A DNA stretch of 64,000 bases from Bryobacteraceae bacterium. Its GTDB lineage: Bacteria > Acidobacteriota > Terriglobia > Bryobacterales > Bryobacteraceae. Positions within the stretch are counted from its first letter, which is position 1. Each line of letters starts with the position of its first letter. The notes beneath the pieces were generated by a model. It was not told the DNA's origin and did not search any database. It was given only the letters and a program-made list of their open reading frames with translations. Positions 10,845-20,337 of this stretch are shown here, in pieces. The translations under genes were made by a program, and so were the position numbers. The stretch is from assembly GCA_026129905.1 (NCBI GenBank), contig JAHCHE010000006.1, forward strand, positions 62,001-126,000, written 5' to 3'.

Positions 10845-11960
10845 TTACGGGGCCCGGCTAAGAATCCAACTCGTCACATAGAACGCTCCGGGGCCCTTGG
10901 CGATCTCGCAGGGATAGGCCAGCCACCACCAGGATTCTGGGGCGCCTATCAAGGACAGGCCGCGCTCCTTCGCGCGGCGCTGAATCTCCGCGACGGGCAG
11001 CAGCGGTTCGAATGCGTTGCCTGCGCTCTGCCGGCAGGCGGCCAGCAGGCGCTCAAACGCGGCGATCTCAGTGTCAAATGGACGTTCGGCCTCGCAAAGA
11101 CTTTCGATAGCGGCGCCTAGTCCCGCGGGGGAACGGGCGAGTCCCAGGCTTTGAAATCCGGGCAGCAGCGCCGCTTCGAACGCGGCGCGGGCTTCCGCCG
11201 TCACGTTGCTCCAAAGAGGACCGCGAGCCAGCGTGTCGCTGAAGTAGATGGTTCCTCCCTCGCGGCGAAGCGCGGCGAGAAGCCGGATGTGATCTTCGAT
11301 CGACAGCGATACGAGCTTCTCGAAAGCCTGGTTGTACCCGCTCCAGCTACGCAGATCGGCGTTGAAGCGCGCGCGCACGAGACGGGACGCATACGCGAAG
11401 GGGAATCTCGGTATCTCCGAAAGGAGAAGCGACGAAATCACAAGGTCGGAAGGAGGGAGCGGGGCGGGCAGTCCCAGTTTCAGATTCTCGAAGAGTTTTT
11501 GCAGGCGGTGGAGCGCCTCCTCCTGAGTGGAACTCGCCTCGATTTCTTCGTCCATCCTCTGCATGAGCGCGCCGGCAAAGGAGGTGACGTCGGTGACGCG
11601 GAGTTCGACCTTGGGGCGGAGTGCGAGCGGGACCTGCTGCAGACTCTCGAGCAGGCTTGGGCCGTCGAGGTCCACCAGGACGAGCCGGTCGAACCGGCGC
11701 GCGAGCTCGGCGAGGGGGATTTCCGCCGCCACGCCGGCGCCGAGAACGGTGGCGGCCGTCCTGCCGGCGGCGAAGTCGGCGGCCTCCAGGATGCGGCGAT
11801 GGCTGCGCTCGATGTGCGGCTTCCAGTAGAGCCGGGTTTCCGGCGCGGTTCCGCGGAAATCGGCGCCGCCGCGGCGGAAAAAGTCCTCGGGCGTCTGGCC
11901 GCGGCAGGCAGCGAAAGCGACCAGCAAACAACAGATGGCGCGATGCGGCGCTAGCGGCAC
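10845..11960 (-). CDS. Exported protein with a methyltransferase-like Rossmann domain, function unknown
   Basis: Protein of 371 aa, GTG start. The N-terminus (MPLAPHRAICCLLVAFAACRGQ) looks like a signal peptide. Residues about 68-125 (ATVLGAGVAAEIPLAEL, LVLVDLDG, VELRVTDVTSF) resemble the SAM-binding Rossmann core of class I methyltransferases, with the acidic residue at the end of strand 2. Later blocks (DLVISSLLLSEI, GGTIYFSDTLA) fit strands 4 and 5. A methyltransferase fold behind an export signal is odd because SAM is cytoplasmic, so the hydrophobic start may be a misread or the fold may serve another purpose. Ends 8 bases from the convergent permease gene. Confidence 0.6.
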   Translation of the reverse strand: MPLAPHRAICCLLVAFAACRGQTPEDFFRRGGADFRGTAPETRLYWKPHIERSHRRILEAADFAAGRTAATVLGAGVAAEIPLAELARRFDRLVLVDLDGPSLLESLQQVPLALRPKVELRVTDVTSFAGALMQRMDEEIEASSTQEEALHRLQKLFENLKLGLPAPLPPSDLVISSLLLSEIPRFPFAYASRLVRARFNADLRSWSGYNQAFEKLVSLSIEDHIRLLAALRREGGTIYFSDTLARGPLWSNVTAEARAAFEAALLPGFQSLGLARSPAGLGAAIESLCEAERPFDTEIAAFERLLAACRQSAGNAFEPLLPVAEIQRRAKERGLSLIGAPESWWWLAYPCEIAKGPGAFYVTSWILSRAP

Positions 11961-12002
11961 GCGTCGATCATACCGCGGCGCTGCGACATACTTGTAGTCG
12001 GT

Positions 12003-12752
12003 ATGGGCTCATGGATTGGGCCTTGGATCTTGCCGGCTCTGCTAGTAGGAACGGCCGCCGCGCGCGCCGGCGAATTCGAGGCGGATTTCGTCCGCATTCC
12101 CGCCGGCGAGTTCGAGATGGGGTGCTCGCCGGACGATACCGCCTGCGGCGAAGAGGAGAAGCCGCTCCATCGGGTCCGCATCACGAAGACGTTCGAGATC
12201 GGCGCGCGCGAGGCGACGCAGCGGCAATGGGAATCCGTCATGGGCAGCAACCCCAGCTATTTCAAGGGCGCGGCGCTGCCGGTGGAGCAGGTGAGCTGGG
12301 TCGATGTCCAGGAGTTCCTTGCGAGACTAAACGCGCGAGGCGACGGATTCCGGTATCGCCTGCCGGCCGAGGCGGAATGGGAATACGCGGCGCGCGCGGG
12401 CGCAAGGGGCGCGCTGTACGGCCCGCTCGAAGCGATCGCATGGTACGGGCGGAATTCCGGCGACCGGACGCATCCAGCGGGCGCCAGGCAGGCAAACGCG
12501 TGGGGCCTGTACGACACGATAGGGAACGTCTGGGAGTGGTGCCAGGACTGGTACGACGCGGAGTATTACAAGCAGTTCGCCGGCCGAGAGGCGGAGAATC
12601 CACGCGGGCCGCCGAGGGGCGAGTACCGGGCGCTACGCGGCGGTTCCTGGTACAAGTACTTGTGGTTTCTTCGGGCCTCCGCCCGTTTCGGCGAGCGGCC
12701 GAACGCCGCCTACCGTCACGTCGGATTCCGAGTGGTCCGCGAGAGCCAGTGA
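12003..12752 (+). CDS. SUMF1/FGE-fold protein, secreted, without the formylglycine-forming cysteines
   Basis: Protein of 249 aa with a signal peptide (MGSWIGPWILPALLVGTAAARA) and one complete FGE-sulfatase (SUMF1) domain: FVRIPAGEFEMG, VTKx-like EATQRQWESVMG, YRLPAEAEWEYAARAG, GNVWEWCQDWY, RGGSW and GFRVVRE. True formylglycine-generating enzymes carry two active cysteines shortly after RGGSW; here that stretch reads WYKYLWFLRASARFGERP with none. It is therefore unlikely to activate the sulfatase at 59.1 kb and more likely one of the PvdO/EgtB-like or non-catalytic members. Start fixed by the signal peptide. Confidence 0.85.
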   Translation: MGSWIGPWILPALLVGTAAARAGEFEADFVRIPAGEFEMGCSPDDTACGEEEKPLHRVRITKTFEIGAREATQRQWESVMGSNPSYFKGAALPVEQVSWVDVQEFLARLNARGDGFRYRLPAEAEWEYAARAGARGALYGPLEAIAWYGRNSGDRTHPAGARQANAWGLYDTIGNVWEWCQDWYDAEYYKQFAGREAENPRGPPRGEYRALRGGSWYKYLWFLRASARFGERPNAAYRHVGFRVVRESQ

Positions 12753-12768
12753 GACCGGGGCGGGGAAG

Positions 12769-12846
12769 TGGTACGCCCGGCTGGATTCGAACCAGCGACC
12801 TCTTGCTCCGGAGGCAAGCGCTCTATCCGGGCTGAGCTACGGGCGC
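12769..12846 (-). tRNA. tRNA-Arg (anticodon CCG)
   Basis: Complete cloverleaf on the minus strand with CCA encoded (TGG at 12769-12771 on the plus strand). Acceptor arms GCGCCCG and CGGGCGT pair with one G-U; D-arm TAGCTCAG...; anticodon stem CTTGC/GCAAG encloses the loop CTCCGGA, giving anticodon CCG (codon CGG); T-arm GCTGGTTCGAATCCAGC. CGG is a frequent arginine codon in this GC-rich window. Confidence 0.97.
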
Positions 12847-12898
12847 GTCGCGGACAGGGGAGCGTGCCGGATCGCAATCGGACCGCCGCCCACCACCG

Positions 12899-12904
12899 AT
12901 TGTA
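12899..12904 (-). promoter_or_regulatory. Probable -10 box (TACAAT) of the tRNA-Arg gene
   Basis: Reads GCGTTACAATCGG on the minus strand, about 53 bases before the tRNA 5' end. It matches the GTTACAAT/GTTACACT boxes seen before other genes in this window. No convincing -35 box lies 16-18 bases upstream. Confidence 0.35.
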
Positions 12905-13392
12905 ACGCAACCGGGACTGTCGCTCCAGCGCACCAAGCACAAACGGCCGCCCCCCTAAAGGGAAAGATAACCGGGGGTTTCCTAAGAAGATAAGAAGATC
13001 TGAAACAGAGAAGAATTTCCAAGCGCATCACTTCATCATCGACACAGAAAACCCAGAGGTTTTGGAGTCGTTGGAAGTGCTGTGCCGTTTCACTTGTAAG
13101 TTGGTAAGCCGGCCCTTGATGCCGGGCCTCAACCTTCGCCTTACCCCCTTCGTTCTGAAGCGCTCCGCTGATTCACGCCGCGCGCCGCCGCGTCGGGCTT
13201 TCGTGACGAGCGGGGACGCCCCCTTCCTCTTCATACGGACTGTCTCCCGAGGCCCAATGAACCACGCGACCTGTCCTCATGATCTTAGTACAGGCGCATC
13301 GCCGCTGCCGGGAGGTTACTTGCCAGCGAAGCCGACTTATTCGGGATACTGATCGCGAATTCACGCCGCGGCGATCCGTTGAGCGAACGCCC

Positions 13393-13560
13393 ATGAGCAG
13401 TTCGGCTGCGTGGCCAGGCCGAACGGTTCCGCTCATATCCGAAATCGGCGCACTTCCAAATCGAAAATCTTTCGGACGTTTCCGACCCGTAACCCTGAAA
13501 AGACTCGCGAGGCAGGAGGTTCGACCTATGCAGGGAACCCGTCAAACGAACGAAAGAAAA
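13393..13560 (+). promoter_or_regulatory. Structured 5' leader upstream of the giant secreted protein gene
   Basis: Several nested inverted repeats precede the GTG at 13578. ATGAGC (13393-13398) pairs with GCTCAT (13431-13436) and encloses GTTCGGC (13400-13406) pairing with GCCGAAC (13418-13424). Next, TCCGAAA (13438-13444) pairs with TTTCGGA about 24 bases later, and CCCTG pairs with CAGGG around AGGTTCGACCT. This looks like folded leader RNA (riboswitch-like or attenuator). I could not match it to a known riboswitch class; it lacks the GEMM c-di-GMP core. Confidence 0.3.
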
Positions 13561-13577
13561 GTTCATGGAGCGTGATC

Positions 13578-14755
13578 GTGCCAAGTAACAACCCAAATCG
13601 TAAGCGCCGACGTAATTACTGGCTCCTGGCCGTTATCTGTTTCTTTCCTTCCCTTCTGCGGAGCCAGACGCTGTTCAGCGACAGTTTTTCGAATGGTCTC
13701 ACGTCCGCGTGGACGGTAGTGGACGAAGCGACGCGCGTAGCGCCGTCTAAGTGGCAAGTAAGTGGTGGCATTCTCCAGCAGAAGAGCAATATTTATGATA
13801 TTGCGGCGGATCCGCTGGCGCAACCAGGAACTTACTTGCTCGCCGGGCAGAACTCCTGGGCGGGATACAGCGTTTCGGCGCGGCTGCGCACGGTGGGCGA
13901 CGACGACGCTATCGGCCTGATGTTCGGTTATCAGAATTCCGGCAACTATTACCGGTTCTCGATGAACAATCAGGACCGATACCGCCGGTTAGTCAAGTTC
14001 GTCAACGGGATGGCGACGTTGCTGGCGGAAGACGGCGTGGCATACGAACCGGGCCGGTGGTACGGCGTCGAAGCCAGGATGGCCGCCGGAGTGGTCGAGA
14101 TTTGGATCGACGGCAGCCGCATCTTTCGGGTGAGCGACGTCAGCCACGCGGGCGGGAAGATCGCGCTGTACGCCTGGTGGAACCTGGGAGCGGAGTTCGA
14201 TGACGTAGTGGTGGCCGGCGTTTCCCAGGAGCCGCTGTGCACTTACTCAATCTCCCCGTCGGAGGCGAACGTGGGACCGGCGGCGGGCAGCGGAAGCGTC
14301 ACGGTGACGGCTCCTTCCGGTTGCCCGTGGACGGCGGCGAGCAACGCCGCTTGGGCGCAGATCACGTCCGGAGCGAGCGGCTCCGGCAACGGAACGGTGA
14401 ATTATTCGGTGCAGGCGAACAGCGGGTCGGGTCCGCGGCAGGCGACGATCACGATTGCCGGGCGCAGCCACCAGGTCACGCAGGCGGGCGCGACCGGAAC
14501 CTCAGGCGGGACCGTGCTATTCAGCGATGACTTCAATAACGGCCTGAAGAGCCACTGGACGGTGGTGGACGAAGGGACCAGCGTCGCGCCGTCGAAGTGG
14601 CAGGTAAGCGGCGGCGTGGCCCAGCAGAAGACCAACATCTGGGGAACGACGTCGAACGCGCTGGCGATGCCCGGGACGTATCTGCTGACCGGCGCGGCCA
14701 CCTGGGCCAGCTACAGCGTAGCGTTGCGGATGCGAACCGTGGTGGATGACGACGC
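13578..14755 (+). CDS. Giant secreted BACON/LamG/beta-helix protein, N-terminal piece (frameshifted)
   Basis: First part of a gene continuing at 14756-18438 in another frame. Start GTG at 13578 (GGAG 7 bases upstream), signal peptide ending about LLRSQ. Then a LamG/DUF1080-like jelly-roll unit (13656-14215: LFSDSFSNGLTSAWTVVD ... GAEFDDVVV), one BACON repeat (14236-14490: CTYSISPSE, GCPWTAASNAAWAQITSG, ITIAGRSHQVTQAG) and the start of a second jelly-roll. At about 14754-14757 this copy reads GACGACGCGGATGGGG, where its near-identical twin at 16364 reads GACGACGTGATGGGG; the one extra base shifts the frame. Frame 1 stays open to 15776 but encodes nonsense after 14756. Confidence 0.75.
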
Positions 14756-15060
14756 GGATGGGGCTGATGTTCGGTTACCAGAACGCGGGCAACTACTATC
14801 GGTTCTCCATGGACATGGAGCGGAAGAACCGGCGTCTGGTGAAGTTGGTCAACGGGGTGGCGAGCCTTTTGGGCGAGGTGAACGAAGGATACGAGCAGGG
14901 GCGTTGGTACGCGGTGGAAGCGAGGCTGAACGGCGGGGTGGTGGAGATCTGGATGGACGGAAGCCGTCTGTTCCAGGTGAACGATGTCAGTCATGCCGGG
15001 GGCAAGATCGCACTGTACGCCTGGTGGAACCTGGGCGCCGAGTTCGACGACGTCGTGGTC
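14285..15060 (+). repeat. Long direct repeat, copy A (about 775 bp)
   Basis: Nearly identical to 15900-16674 (offset 1615 before the indel, 1614 after it). It spans most of a BACON repeat and a whole LamG-like unit. I see only a handful of substitutions (for example ACGATTGCCGG versus ACGATCGCCGG) plus one extra base near 14755. Confidence 0.95.
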
Positions 15061-18000
15061 GCCAACTACGCCCGGCCCTGTTCATACGCGATCTCTCCCG
15101 GCGAAGGCGCCGCGGCGGCGGGGGGCGGCCCCGGGACCGTGAGCGTCACCGCGGAGACGGGCTGCTCGTGGACGGCGGCGAGCGGCGAGGACTGGGTGGC
15201 GATCACCTCGGGCGCCGAGGGCGACGGCAACGGAGCCGTTACGTATGTCGTCGACGCCAATCCCGGAATCAGCCAGCGAAAGGCGACGTTGACCGTCGCG
15301 GGACAAACGTACTCGATCGTCCAGCCAGGAATCCCCTGTTCGTACGCCATTTCTCCGGCATCGGCTGCCGTCGAAGCGGCGGCGAGCGCCGGCAGCATCG
15401 AGGTGACGGCGCAGACCGGCTGCGCTTGGACTGCCGCCAGCGACAAGGCCTGGCTGCAGATCACGTCGGGAGCGAGCGGAGACGGCGATGGGGAAATCGG
15501 TTACGAGGTGGCGGCCAATCCCGGCGTTGCGCCGCGACAGGCAAAGCTGACGATCGCCGGACACGTCTACACGGTGACCCAGGCGGGCATCGAGTGCACC
15601 TACGATATCTCACCCTCCGAAGACAGCGCCGATGCAGGCGCAGGCAGCGGCGCCGTGGAAGTGACGGCGCAGTTGGGATGCGCGTGGACGGCGACGAGCA
15701 GCGCGGGGTGGGCCCAGATCACATCCGGCGCCAGCGGGAACGGCGACGGAGTTGTGGGCTATGCTATTGCGGCTAATTCGAGCACCGCCCCCCGGCACGC
15801 AACGCTGACCATCGCCGGGTATGCCTTCGAAATTACTCAGGCCGGAATCGCCTGTTCGTACACGATTTCTCCGGCGGAAGCGAGTCTCGGGTTCCCTGGG
15901 GGCAGCGGAAGCGTCACGGTGACGGCTCCTTCCGGTTGCCCGTGGACGGCGGCGAGCAACGCCGCTTGGGCGCAGATCACGTCCGGAGCGAGCGGCTCCG
16001 GCAACGGAACGGTGAATTATTCGGTGCAGGCGAACAGCGGGTCGGGTCCGCGGCAGGCGACGATCACGATCGCCGGGCGCAGCCACCAGGTCACGCAGGC
16101 GGGCGCGACCGGAACCTCGGGCGGGACCGTGCTATTCAGCGATGACTTCAATAACGGCCTGAAGAGCCACTGGACGGTGGTGGACGAAGGGACCAGCGTC
16201 GCGCCGTCGAAGTGGCAGGTAAGCGGCGGCGTGGCCCAGCAGAAGACCAACATCTGGGGAACGACGTCGAACGCGCTGGCGATGCCCGGGACGTATCTGC
16301 TGACCGGCGCGGCCACCTGGGCCAGCTACAGCGTAGCGTTGCGGATGCGAACCGTGGTGGACGACGACGTGATGGGGCTGATGTTCGGTTACCAGAACGC
16401 GGGCAACTACTATCGGTTCTCCATGGACATGGAGCGGAAGAACCGGCGTCTGGTGAAGTTGGTCAACGGGGTGGCGAGCCTTTTGGGCGAGGTGAACGAA
16501 GGATACGAGCAGGGGCGTTGGTACGCGGTGGAAGCGAGGCTGAACGGCGGGGTGGTGGAGATCTGGATGGACGGAAGCCGTCTGTTCCAGGTGAACGACG
16601 TCAGTCATGCCGGGGGCAAGATCGCACTGTACGCCTGGTGGAACCTGGGCGCCGAGTTCGACGACGTCGTGGTCAGCGGCCTCAGTGGCGGCGGTGGCGG
16701 CAACACGTGCACATACGCCATTTCTCCGGCGCAAGTTGAAGTGGGCTCTCTCGGGGGGACCGGCGCCGTGCAGGTGACGGCGCCCAGCGGGTGCAGTTGG
16801 ACGGCGGCCAAGACCGCGTCATGGATCACGATTACGTCGGGGGCGCAGGACTCCGGCAACGGCTCGGTCGGGTATTCGGTAGCAGCGAACGGCGGTTCCA
16901 ACAGCCGCCAGACCACGCTTACCATCGCGGGCCTCAGTTTCGGCGTTTCGCAACTGGCGCCCGCGGCGACGCAGACGATTTACGTTCCCGCGGGGGGCGA
17001 CTTGCAGCAGGCGATCGACGACGCGGCCCCAGGCAGCACGATCGCGCTGGAGCCCGGCCGCGAGTACCGCGGCAACTTCATCCTAAGGAACAAGCCGGGA
17101 TCGCAGTACATCACCATCACCACTTCCGATCCCGGCAAGTTGCCTCCGGCCGGCAAGCGGATTACGCCGGCCTACGCGGTGAATCTGCCGAAGATTGTCG
17201 GAACCAACGACTCCCCGGTGATCTCGACGGAAGCCGGAGCGCACCATTGGCGGCTGGTTGGGCTGGAGATCCACGCGCCGAACGTCTACTGCTATGAACT
17301 GGTGCAGTTGGGCTCGGCAACCGCCACCAAGGCGAGCGATCAGCCGTCGAACATCGAACTCGACCGGGTCTACGTGCATGGCGACCCAAAGATCGGGGCC
17401 AAGCGCGGCGTGACCCTCAACAGCGCCTCCACCTCGATCCGTAACAGCTATTTCTCGGATTTCAAGGGAGCGTCACAGGAGACCCAGGCGCTGTTGGGAT
17501 GGAACGGGCCAGGGCCGTTCGATATCACCAACAACTATCTCGAGGCGGCGGGCGAGAACATCATGTTCGGCGGCGCGGCCCCGAAAATCCAGGGACTGGT
17601 TCCGTCCGACATCACCATCCGAAACAACCACATCTACAAGCCGACGGCTTGGTACCGCTACGCTTCCGACTACGACGGTTCGTCGTGGATGGTGAAGAAC
17701 TCGCTGGAGCTGAAGATGGCGCGGCGGGTGACCATCGAAGGGAACCTGATCGAGAACAACTGGCAACAGGCGCAGAACGGCTATGCCATCGTGTTCACGG
17801 TGCGGGCTAACCAGGTGGCGACGTGGGCGGTGGTGGAGGACGTGAGCTTCGTGCGGAACATCGTGCGACACTCCGGCTGCGGGGTGAACATCCTCGGCAA
17901 GGACAACAACTCCAACAACGCCGGCATCACGCAACGAATCTTGATCAAGGACAACCTGTTCGAGGACATCGACTACACGCGCTGGGGCGGCGACGGCCGG

Positions 18001-18438
18001 GCGTTTCAGGTGCTGGCCGGGTCCAAGGACGTCACCATCGACCACAATACGGTGATCACCAACAACCTCCGTGCGCTAATCCTGTTCGACGGCGAACCGT
18101 CGCAGGGGTTTGTCTACCGGAACAACATCGCGCTCCACGGGACGAACGGAGTGATGGGTTCGGGCAAAGCCATCGGGATCGGGACCCTGAGCTACTACGC
18201 GCCAGGATATGTGTTCCTGAAGAACGTGCTCGTCGGAGCAGCGTCGCGCGCGAGCTCGTATCCGGCCGACAACTACTTCCCGGCGGGCTGGGCGGACGTT
18301 AAGTTCGTCGATTTCGCCAAGGGCAACTACCGGCTGGGAACGCAGAGTCCGTACATTAAGGCGGGTACCGACGGCAAGGATCTCGGCGCCGACATCGAAG
18401 CGGTACTCGCCGCTACCGCCGGCGCGGCGGTTCCATAG
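14746..18438 (+). CDS. Giant secreted BACON/LamG/beta-helix protein, C-terminal piece
   Basis: Continuation after the frameshift; sequence homologous to the intact copy starts at 14758 (MGLMFGYQNAGNYYRFSM). Order: rest of jelly-roll 2 (to 15060); four BACON repeats (15073-16110), each with C-x-YxISP, GCxWTA and ITSGA signatures; jelly-roll 3 (16129-16674); a sixth BACON (16705-16965); and a right-handed parallel beta-helix of about 480 residues (16975-18435: YVPAGGDLQQAIDDAAPG, ITIRNNHIYKP, VTIDHNTVITNN), as in pectate-lyase-like proteins. Likely binds and perhaps cleaves or displays on polysaccharide outside the cell; catalytic residues cannot be assigned. Joined to the first piece the protein would be about 1,620 residues. 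Confidence 0.8.
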   Translation: MTTRMGLMFGYQNAGNYYRFSMDMERKNRRLVKLVNGVASLLGEVNEGYEQGRWYAVEARLNGGVVEIWMDGSRLFQVNDVSHAGGKIALYAWWNLGAEFDDVVVANYARPCSYAISPGEGAAAAGGGPGTVSVTAETGCSWTAASGEDWVAITSGAEGDGNGAVTYVVDANPGISQRKATLTVAGQTYSIVQPGIPCSYAISPASAAVEAAASAGSIEVTAQTGCAWTAASDKAWLQITSGASGDGDGEIGYEVAANPGVAPRQAKLTIAGHVYTVTQAGIECTYDISPSEDSADAGAGSGAVEVTAQLGCAWTATSSAGWAQITSGASGNGDGVVGYAIAANSSTAPRHATLTIAGYAFEITQAGIACSYTISPAEASLGFPGGSGSVTVTAPSGCPWTAASNAAWAQITSGASGSGNGTVNYSVQANSGSGPRQATITIAGRSHQVTQAGATGTSGGTVLFSDDFNNGLKSHWTVVDEGTSVAPSKWQVSGGVAQQKTNIWGTTSNALAMPGTYLLTGAATWASYSVALRMRTVVDDDVMGLMFGYQNAGNYYRFSMDMERKNRRLVKLVNGVASLLGEVNEGYEQGRWYAVEARLNGGVVEIWMDGSRLFQVNDVSHAGGKIALYAWWNLGAEFDDVVVSGLSGGGGGNTCTYAISPAQVEVGSLGGTGAVQVTAPSGCSWTAAKTASWITITSGAQDSGNGSVGYSVAANGGSNSRQTTLTIAGLSFGVSQLAPAATQTIYVPAGGDLQQAIDDAAPGSTIALEPGREYRGNFILRNKPGSQYITITTSDPGKLPPAGKRITPAYAVNLPKIVGTNDSPVISTEAGAHHWRLVGLEIHAPNVYCYELVQLGSATATKASDQPSNIELDRVYVHGDPKIGAKRGVTLNSASTSIRNSYFSDFKGASQETQALLGWNGPGPFDITNNYLEAAGENIMFGGAAPKIQGLVPSDITIRNNHIYKPTAWYRYASDYDGSSWMVKNSLELKMARRVTIEGNLIENNWQQAQNGYAIVFTVRANQVATWAVVEDVSFVRNIVRHSGCGVNILGKDNNSNNAGITQRILIKDNLFEDIDYTRWGGDGRAFQVLAGSKDVTIDHNTVITNNLRALILFDGEPSQGFVYRNNIALHGTNGVMGSGKAIGIGTLSYYAPGYVFLKNVLVGAASRASSYPADNYFPAGWADVKFVDFAKGNYRLGTQSPYIKAGTDGKDLGADIEAVLAATAGAAVP
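15900..16674 (+). repeat. Long direct repeat, copy B (about 775 bp)
   Basis: Intact-frame partner of 14285-15060. Near identity over 775 bp, against clear divergence of the first jelly-roll unit (13656-14215), points to recent duplication or gene conversion inside the gene. Confidence 0.95.
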
Positions 18439-18455
18439 GCGGAACGGCGGATCGC

Positions 18456-18486
18456 GGTTCCGCGACGCTCCGGCGTCCGCGGAACC
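18456..18486. terminator. Strong hairpin between convergent genes (bidirectional terminator)
   Basis: GGTTCCGC pairs with GCGGAACC, and inside it GACGC pairs with GCGTC around a TCCG loop (one bulged C), about 13 base pairs in total. It sits between the stops of the giant protein gene (18438) and the thioredoxin-like gene (18499). No T-run follows on either strand, so an intrinsic terminator is likely but not certain. Confidence 0.5.
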
Positions 18487-18498
18487 AGCTCCGGCCGG

Positions 18499-19014
18499 TC
18501 ACTGCTTCAGCAAGGGTTCGACAATGTTGCGCAGGTTCTGATCTTCGTTCTCGAAGAAGGGATCCGTGCCGGAGTACTGGGCGCGAATGGTTCCCTTCTT
18601 GTCGATGATGACCAGTTGCGGCATCATCATCGTCAGCATCACCGGGTGCTGGAGGAAGTCGATCACCTTGTTGCGATCGGTCATGCCGATGGGAAAGGTC
18701 AGGCGCAGTTCGCGCGCGTAGCCGGGTATCAGTTCCTGCGCGCCGTCGTTAATGGCCACGCCCAGCGGCTGAAATCCGCGGCCGCCCAATTCCTCGTAAA
18801 CCCGCTGCATCGAGCTGGAGCAGCGCTTGCAATGCGGGCACGTGGTCAGCAGGAACTCGAGCGCCACCACTTTGCCTTTGTAGCTGCTCAAGTTGATGGT
18901 TTTGCCGGTGGGCAGGGAAAAGACAAACTCGGGCGCCGGACGCGGCACTTGCGCCGCCAGAAGCAGCGCTGCCGTGGCGCACACACTAAGCACCCCAATC
19001 AGCACACGACGCAT
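18499..19014 (-). CDS. Exported TlpA/AhpC-like thioredoxin-fold protein
   Basis: Protein of 171 aa with an N-terminal signal segment (about 1-22), then a TlpA/AhpC-TSA-like redoxin domain: APEFVFSLPTGKTINLSSYKGKVV and the redox motif CPHC (Cys59, Cys62) followed by a third cysteine (Cys65). LVIIDKKGTIRAQYSG is the usual late strand pair. Probably a periplasmic thiol-disulphide reductase; unlike DsbA types it keeps the redoxin insertion. A TACACT box lies 22 bases before the ATG. Separate from the HExxH gene by about 80 bases. Confidence 0.85.
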   Translation of the reverse strand: MRRVLIGVLSVCATAALLLAAQVPRPAPEFVFSLPTGKTINLSSYKGKVVALEFLLTTCPHCKRCSSSMQRVYEELGGRGFQPLGVAINDGAQELIPGYARELRLTFPIGMTDRNKVIDFLQHPVMLTMMMPQLVIIDKKGTIRAQYSGTDPFFENEDQNLRNIVEPLLKQ

Positions 19015-19034
19015 TACGGGATCAGCCTCCTCAT

Positions 19035-19047
19035 TCAGTGTAACGTA
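19035..19047 (-). promoter_or_regulatory. Probable -10 region (TACGTTACACTGA) of the thioredoxin-like gene
   Basis: Exact 13-base match to the site at 813-825, same orientation relative to its gene. TACACT lies 22 bases before the start codon, giving a leader of roughly 16 nt with AGGAGG-like purines (GAATGAGGAGGCTGATCC) just before the ATG. Confidence 0.45.
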
Positions 19048-19095
19048 TGACCAGTTTAACCGATGTCCGCGCCTTCGGATCCTGTGGCGGCGGAC

Positions 19096-20337
19096 CTACA
19101 GAAGGTCGGCCAGCGCCGCCAGTCCCTCCGCGCAGATCACCTGGGAACCGTCCAGGCGCACAACGAAGTACCCATCGTCGCCCTGTCCGGAAAACCGCTC
19201 CCGCGTGTCCTGGCTGACAAGCAGGGATTTCCACTTCTTGTCGAGTACTTTTCGATAAAGGCGGAAAAACTCCGCCGCCGTTTCCGGCGTTTCCCATGCG
19301 GAAACATGCAACAGCACGGTACGCTTATTCCTGCGGTGCTCCAGGAAACGGTAGGCGCCGCCGGTCCATCGGGGCGCGATCCGTTTGGCCGCATCGTCGC
19401 CGGCGAACTGGCGCAGCAGCACGGAAAAATCGAACTCGCCCAAAGTGCCTTCAGCGAGCTGGGCGTACTGGTTCGCCCGCGCCAGACGCGGCATGTCGGG
19501 CGCCTTCACCGGAACCGGATCCAGGTACTTTTCCGGATGCAAAACCTGCTGCGTGGTCGCCGGCGGCCTGCGGAACACCTCGGTGAACGCCTTGCGGCCC
19601 ATCTTTTCGACGATCGCCTGCTGGAACCGCATCCCGCCGGTGTAAGGAAAAATGAGCGATTCCCGCAAGTAGAGCGGGGCTTTGTCCAGCACCGGGAATT
19701 CACCCTGAGAAGAGCCGATCATCCGCGCCATCACCGCGAACAGGTCCGGCGAATCCTTCAGCGACCGGCCGGTCCGCTGTACCGACAGTTCCGCCATCAG
19801 CCATGTGGCCTGGCCTTCGAGCACCGCCATCCTGGCCAGGGCCCCGTCGTCGTTCTTTCCGGCGCGGTCCAGGTAGCGCTGGAGCCGAAAGTGCTGATCG
19901 GCGAGGGCGTGCGCCAGTTCGTGGGTCAGCGCGGCCTCCTGCGTCTCGGGGTCGTCGCTTTCCAGCACGAAGAGTTTCTTCTTCTTGAAGTCGTAGAAGG
20001 CGGCCGCCTGCTCGGTATAGAGTTCGACCGTGGTCTCTTTCAGGTCGAAGTCCGGCGGAACGAAGCCGAACTTCTTGAGGAGCATCTCCTCGACGCGGAT
20101 GTCCTCCGGCTTGATCTCCTCCTTGATGCGGCGTTCGAGGAAGCGCTTCAGGTCGGGCCGGTCGATCATGTCGTAGGCCACCTTGTGGCGTAATTCCAGG
20201 CCGGTGATCTCGCTGAGTTGCCGGACGGTCTGGTCGAGCTTGTCGAAGAGTTGGTTAGGCTGGCGTTCGGATTGCCGTTCAAGAGCCGGGGCCTGCAACA
20301 AGGCGGCCAGCAGCGGGAGGACGAAGGCGCTTTTCAT
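19096..20337 (-). CDS. Exported HExxH metallopeptidase-like protein
   Basis: Protein of 413 aa. A hydrophobic N-terminus (MKSAFVLPLLAALLQAPAL) suggests export. The key feature is HELAH (139-143) in EAALTHELAHALADQHF, a zincin-type HExxH, followed by YLDRAG and a later Glu-rich helix (AVLEGQATWLMAEL, about 171-184) that could supply the third zinc ligand. It fits uncharacterised secreted zinc peptidase families of acidobacteria; substrate unknown. Its ATG overlaps the stop of the MFS gene (ATGA at 20334-20337), so the two are coupled. Confidence 0.7.
   Translation of the reverse strand: MKSAFVLPLLAALLQAPALERQSERQPNQLFDKLDQTVRQLSEITGLELRHKVAYDMIDRPDLKRFLERRIKEEIKPEDIRVEEMLLKKFGFVPPDFDLKETTVELYTEQAAAFYDFKKKKLFVLESDDPETQEAALTHELAHALADQHFRLQRYLDRAGKNDDGALARMAVLEGQATWLMAELSVQRTGRSLKDSPDLFAVMARMIGSSQGEFPVLDKAPLYLRESLIFPYTGGMRFQQAIVEKMGRKAFTEVFRRPPATTQQVLHPEKYLDPVPVKAPDMPRLARANQYAQLAEGTLGEFDFSVLLRQFAGDDAAKRIAPRWTGGAYRFLEHRRNKRTVLLHVSAWETPETAAEFFRLYRKVLDKKWKSLLVSQDTRERFSGQGDDGYFVVRLDGSQVICAEGLAALADLL

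Follow-up and report, generated by a model that had tools for sequence, protein, structure and literature searches.

The window analysed here, a 64-kb stretch of a genome assigned to the Bryobacteraceae, contains a large gene whose product is divided between two overlapping open reading frames, listed at 13410-15776 (the frame of GTG 13578) and at 14746-18438. Joined, their translations make sense as a single repeat protein of about 1,620 residues, as the sequence-only reading had proposed for the frame starting at GTG 13578 and the one running to 18438. The locus is made up as follows.

13528..13575, plus strand: possible 15-codon leader ORF after AGGAGG (13514-13519), predicted from sequence
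13578..14756, plus strand: upstream part of the gene, with a GTG start (13572 is also possible), a signal-peptide-like N-terminus, domain 1, BACON 1 and the start of domain 2
14757..15776, plus strand: run-on, out of frame, in which the upstream frame continues for 339 codons up to a stop
14758..18438, plus strand: downstream part, in the second frame (within the ORF given as 14746-18438), with no signal peptide of its own as judged by eye
13668..14222, plus strand: CBM66/LamG-like domain 1 (tblastn, 70% identity to domain 3; PF06439 at 26.5 bits, just below the cut-off of 26.8)
14247..14489, plus strand: BACON domain 1 (PF13004 / PF19190)
14502..15063, plus strand: CBM66/LamG-like domain 2, frame-split (tblastn and the domain 3 model)
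15067..16110, plus strand: BACON domains 2 to 5 (PF13004; borders from the translation)
16117..16683, plus strand: CBM66/LamG-like domain 3 (PF06439 at 34.1 bits against a cut-off of 26.8; model pLDDT 87.7)
16705..16953, plus strand: BACON domain 6 (Pfam; borders from the translation)
16969..18435, plus strand: right-handed parallel beta-helix of 489 residues (PF13229 at 26.8 bits against a cut-off of 25.9; model pLDDT 93.2)

Domain architecture and predicted role

The N-terminus, which is basic and hydrophobic, resembles a signal peptide by eye, and the sequence GGAG lies seven bases upstream of GTG 13578. It is followed by CBM66-like domain 1, BACON 1, the broken CBM66-like domain 2, BACON 2-5, CBM66-like domain 3, BACON 6 and the beta-helix, so that the whole protein has three CBM66/LamG-like domains, six BACON domains and one right-handed beta-helix. 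PF13004 scores above its cut-off of 25 bits in both halves (31.5 and 99.6 bits); four of its five stretches in the downstream part correspond to BACON 2 to 5. Run-on 14757..15776 matches no NCBIfam family, the matches found there being far below cut-off.

The TGA of the possible leader ORF (13573-13575) overlaps GTG 13572, an arrangement as in translational coupling. A tRNA gene lies upstream of the locus on the minus strand (12772-12846), and the 0.7 kb between it and the gene start has no Rfam match. Across 11500-19500, the RNA search returned the tRNA and, opposite it on the other strand, one match below its gathering score, with nothing at the break.

The best model of domain 3 had a pLDDT of 87.7, the other four 60-67. 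Its nearest fold is CBM66 of Bacillus subtilis levanase (4b1m; Foldseek E 1.9e-9, TMq 0.70), which was also found from the domain 3 sequence (profile E 6.4e-7); the two share a LamG-like domain fold but are 19% identical. Of the description of the product as a BACON/LamG/beta-helix protein, the BACON and beta-helix parts are thus borne out, and 'LamG' is better named CBM66-like. The beta-helix model (pLDDT 93.2) resembles AlgE mannuronan epimerases, RbmB, PL6 alginate lyases and phage tailspikes, with Z scores of 25-31 among the 50 matches listed. AlgE, RbmB and PL6 enzymes share the right-handed beta-helix with it at Z of about 26 to 31, but at 13-19% identity in those matches. Foldseek ranked lacto-N-biosidases and PL6 lyases first, and Beta_helix was the only Pfam family above cut-off for this domain; the resemblance to PL6 lyases and mannuronan epimerases consists of the fold together with weak sequence matches. 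The protein is predicted to be carbohydrate-binding, and probably is; judging from the folds, it likely binds, and perhaps cuts, extracellular polysaccharide.

Several BACON domains in a row are also found in crAssphage (PF13004; PMC6949934), and the available portion of that article describes phage BACON arrays as growing by duplication and transfer. In contrast to those arrays, the window protein is bacterial and of a secreted type, and mixes BACON with CBM66-like domains and a beta-helix. Our literature search combining 'BACON domain', Acidobacteria and secreted proteins returned nothing.

The reading frame changes once, at 14757

As an assessment of the frame break that was supplied with no position, we used an HMM of codon usage whose training contigs, C56 and C23 of the window's genome, include the broken gene itself. 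It placed a frame change at 14757 with a gain of 46.8 nats. The first version of the HMM, which did not model gene overlaps, called three events in the window, two of them besides 14757; in the later versions with overlaps, 14757 was the sole event in the whole window. With domain 3 as the tblastn query, 14502-14738 was matched in one frame and 14758-15063 in another, and query residues 80-85 fall between the two matches, at the join of the frames. In the modelled domain 3 fold, the break maps to the strand of residues 85-94.

We then compared 16 copies of the CBM66-like domain by tblastn, namely 15 from the same genome (the query included) and one from a relative (L030). The frame is intact in 15 of them, with no break matching that of domain 2 of the window gene. 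The frame break in the given sequence is real, and a frame broken in a gene with unbroken homologs is one mark of a pseudogene. These results uphold the earlier statements that the break lies at about 14754-14757, that it consists of one extra base, and that coding character is kept on both sides with the rest of the gene intact.

The break lies within a near-identical internal repeat

The frame change falls in the first copy of a direct repeat inside the gene, with these features:

14285..15060, plus strand: copy 1 of the internal direct repeat, 776 bp, with the extra base (repeat comparison)
15900..16674, plus strand: copy 2, 775 bp, read in the frame of the downstream part (repeat comparison)
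14747..14757, plus strand: three differences from copy 2 (two transitions and the extra base), the site of the frame change (alignment and HMM)

The strings that the sequence-only reading had quoted from the two copies are both present. The copies are offset by 1615 to the left of the break and by 1614 to its right, which shows that copy 1 has one extra base; an intact copy of the broken stretch therefore sits 1.6 kb downstream in the same gene. The copies are 99.2% identical and have sharp borders, suggesting that their duplication, or an exchange between them, was recent. They differ by five substitutions, all transitions, at 14456, 14504, 14747, 14755 and 14985; reading the codons by eye, four are silent and one exchanges Ala and Val. 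Counting the extra base, there are six differences, and three of them fall inside 11 bp (14747-14757), a cluster that the earlier reading did not remark on and that six random places in 776 bp would produce with P = 0.009. Exact runs of 242 and 227 bp flank the cluster, the former being the longest exact run between the copies. A search of the genome for a donor of the variant bases found no other match within three mismatches, gaps not being allowed.

As to sequence features that favour slippage, the break has no tandem repeat (three short rows occur elsewhere in the gene) and no homopolymer, the longest run within 50 nt being GGGG. The codons at the break are GCG GAT GGG. We also computed what recombination between the copies would do to the open frame. 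Counted from 13572, the sequence as it stands has 734 open codons; a crossover to the left of the break would leave 1,083, and one to its right 517. These counts are geometry and no sign of use.

Other repeats and broken genes in the same genome

To place the window repeat among others, we used six contigs of the same genome (1.589 Mb of 8.57 Mb), which were picked for holding genes of the family; small matches on C34 and C6 were left out. Local repeat pairs were defined as same-strand pairs of at least 200 bp, at least 85% identical and within 15 kb. Of the 17 direct-repeat pairs found, the one in the window has the highest identity, and gaps are present in 8, coding and non-coding ones not being told apart. 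We picked four gap-free pairs by hand: two on C11, of which one is in RHS-like DNA, and two on C71. Over 3,617 columns they have 278 substitutions and no gaps; another pair on C71 contains three gaps, one of 6 bases and two of a single base.

In repeat pairs on C11 and C71, identical stretches are interspersed with diverged ones. One gap-free pair, L018 5499-6321 and 6324-7146, is 96% identical overall and lies inside an RHS-like gene; its patchwork of identical and diverged stretches suggests gene conversion. Another, L018 7115-7942 and 9410-10237, is likewise gap-free, 95% identical overall, and extends beyond the stop of the RHS-like gene.

A paralog on contig C28 (L013, G000:C28, 3801-11813 and beyond, minus strand) has a subtilase-like N-terminus, as judged by eye, and three beta-helices. 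The third beta-helix is broken by a patch of small indels at about C28:66860-67115, with matches in three frames. In a MAFFT alignment of copy 3 with copy 2, all nine gap openings fall in columns 886-1120 of 1,464; the gap region contains a difference-free stretch of 60 columns and is followed by another of 180, with substitutions before it. Blastn differs from MAFFT here, giving 19 gap runs, five of them in the diverged far end. From its sequence, the patch resembles a consensus that failed within a repeat. Such irregularity was seen in the C28 pair and was absent from the four gap-free pairs.

The third broken gene of the family is RHS-like by eye, with two CBM66/BACON units, and its frame breaks at G000:C11:136804 (L115), after the N-terminal domain. 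This break lies outside any repeat found, and blastn found no second copy of its DNA in the six contigs. Three genes of the family (window, C28 and C11) are thus broken in this genome, which the earlier reading had not remarked. A gene that we named by eye as an RND-type efflux pump also appears to have a frame break, at G000:C23:279588.

To survey frame breaks more generally, we ran the HMM over the contigs. The first version gave 48 events in C56 and C23, because gene overlaps were unmodelled. Adding same-strand overlaps reduced this to 23 events, and several of the earlier calls end inside an opposite-strand gene. With opposite-strand overlaps as well, there were 29 events among 1,232 gene calls in the six contigs (12 in C56 and C23), and 15 of the 29 had a gain under 10. 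Gains were computed per 8-kb stretch, so that neighbouring events carry one common value. Seven clusters had a gain of at least 20 nats: the window, C23 279588-282711, C23 287498, C71 934, C28 65979/66906, C45 96269 and C11 136804. The C71 event has just 14 downstream residues and may not be real. Three of the seven are in genes of the family, which make up about 3% of the 1.59 Mb by rough estimate (P about 0.0009, post hoc).

Homologs in relatives

The nearest named homologs are from Bryobacteraceae and other acidobacterial MAGs. A scan of the genome collection gave four homologous loci at 38-54% identity, with the window's own genome possibly left out of the scan; the collection has one genome of the genus, and no sister strain. 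Stop codons occur in five match rows from four relatives (G013:C137, G016:C595, G015:C1 and G021:C222).

We applied the HMM, with the codon model of the window's genome, to 23 loci of relatives (L118-L137 and L030-L032), a set separate from the four stop-containing stretches. It called no clear break inside a family gene in these 23 loci. Events at the ends of loci (L119, L120, L133, L030 and L031) were set aside as edge effects. Other events, in L119, L125, L131, L137 and L032, had whole-locus gains of 0.9-5.6, and L134 had three events with a gain of 27.6 in a gene outside the matches of the family query. The HMM has little power for L119 and L126 (GC 0.51). In L032, from an acidobacterial gp7 MAG, a beta-helix homolog at 1177-2551 is matched in two frames with 35 residues missing between them, possibly another break. 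The HMM was silent on this frame change shown by tblastn, which indicates that it misses some breaks.

Discussion

In all likelihood the frame break is an accidental, one-off event. The sequence-only reading had left assembly error, recent mutation and an on-off switch side by side; the first two both fit the results, and the third gained no positive support. In the scheme of the GeneTack survey of 1,106 genomes, as given in the available portion of PMC3711429, a singleton frame break is a pseudogene or a sequencing error, and the window break would count as a singleton. Like the singletons described there, it is the single frame change of a coding region that is open elsewhere, and the homologs compared do not share it; it differs from them by its place in one of two near-identical repeat copies inside the gene, the other of which is unbroken.

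We slightly favour an error of the assembled consensus over a true mutation, at a little less than even probability, because the three differences within 11 bp sit between identical runs of 242 and 227 bp of near-identical copies. We infer that the extra base would then be absent from the real DNA; the chance that the break is present only in the assembly is about even. The improbability of such clustering, the coding character kept on both sides and the lack of any further HMM event in the gene all argue for an error. The indel-dense patch inside the repeat of the C28 paralog resembles a badly resolved consensus, and the four gap-free pairs accumulated their 278 substitutions without a single gap. 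The attribution of singletons to indel mutation or sequencing error in the accessible text of PMC3711429 is consistent with the same view.

Several observations weigh against an error. The break resembles a small indel splitting one gene in a draft assembly but differs in that the site is no homopolymer. The assembly separates the copies at three further positions, and paired short reads, if such were used, could span even the longest stretch of exact identity, 242 bp. Both clustered substitutions are ordinary transitions. It is not unusual for repeat copies to differ by gaps (8 of the 17 pairs do). The C28 patch has a clean flank on one side only, with substitutions before it, and blastn puts 5 of 19 gaps in the far end. 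The C11 gene is broken in DNA for which blastn found no duplicate in the six contigs, genes that do not belong to the family also seem to be broken, and other assemblies contain broken homologs as well, with stops in four relatives and the two frames of L032.

These last points speak for the second explanation, a true recent frameshift, which we consider a realistic possibility though short of probable. The base would be real, and the gene a young pseudogene or a strain-level null. Its product would be a secreted stump that keeps the signal peptide, domain 1, BACON 1 and some of domain 2, continues into a nonsense tail of 339 codons and lacks the beta-helix. One HMM event in the gene and four silent substitutions of five are what a recent event predicts. 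Breaks with no second copy in the six contigs occur at C11:136804 and, by translation, in the pump gene at C23:279588. The share of strong clusters in family genes (three of seven, the P value being post hoc) would fit a dispensable, fast-changing family, as would the stops in five match rows from four relatives fit a recent mutation here. On the other side, three differences in 11 bp are unusual for independent mutations, and ordinary decay hardly explains the indel-dense patch of the C28 paralog.

The third explanation, a reversible recombination switch, is improbable. Copy 2 would serve as a built-in donor, and gene conversion or crossover between the direct repeats would restore or lose the open frame. 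The 99.2% identity and sharp borders of the 776-bp copies, which point to recent duplication or exchange, are compatible with this, as are the open-codon counts (1,083 after a crossover on the left, 517 on the right and 734 as is) and the patchworks on C11 and C71, a pattern that conversion leaves. However, the same geometry arises accidentally in any gene with internal repeats. A two-way switch must also have a means of returning to OFF, and an ungapped search of the genome allowing three mismatches found the variant stretch nowhere else. The usual marks of frameshift phase variation, tandem repeats and homopolymers, are absent from the site. Bordetella pertussis phase variation, as presented in the available text of the review PMC11868660, shows likewise that a frameshift can turn a gene off; the window site differs in lacking such repeats, and no second allele was seen with one genome of the genus compared. 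The string 'Acidobacteri' does not occur in that available text.

A broader form of this idea would make the large secreted CBM66/BACON/beta-helix genes self-templated contingency loci, in which breaks in a repeat copy are undone by gene conversion with no simple-sequence repeat. Three family genes broken in one genome would fit, but the break in the C11 gene is not in a repeat, and broken homologs occur in a few relatives too; we regard this generalization as quite unlikely.

Two further explanations can be largely dismissed. Programmed +1 ribosomal frameshifting or transcriptional slippage could join the frames, which overlap and encode parts of the same protein, but this is very unlikely: 15 of 16 domain copies compared are in one frame and do not share the break, GCG GAT GGG fits none of the motifs quoted in the accessible part of PMC3711429 (CTT TGA C as a +1 motif, and A/T runs), the upstream frame stays open for 339 more codons and so offers no stop to pause the ribosome, and no RNA family occurs at the site. 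Equally far-fetched are two separate proteins, the second starting at ATG 14746 or 14758; both ATGs share the frame of the downstream ORF, but the start would fall in the middle of a CBM66-like domain, the product would have no signal peptide, and the upstream stop lies 1 kb further on, so that stop and start are not coupled.

If the preferred reading, a consensus error, is correct, the cell would make the full protein with its signal peptide, sugar-binding modules and beta-helix. The three CBM66-like and six BACON modules would bind sugars, and the beta-helix would be of the polysaccharide lyase/epimerase kind. The case would then caution once more that a draft genome can show large secreted proteins as broken in their internal repeats. 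If the base is instead a mutation, the strain would be without the beta-helix part of one glycan-binding protein, with other members of the family still open. Either way the window gene would be an ordinary finding, with a small chance of something better. The one outcome of wide importance would be a reversible switch, that is, frameshift switching templated by the gene's own repeat in an apparent acidobacterium; and were the contingency-locus reading true, a surface glycan-binding protein would be toggled with no simple-sequence repeat.
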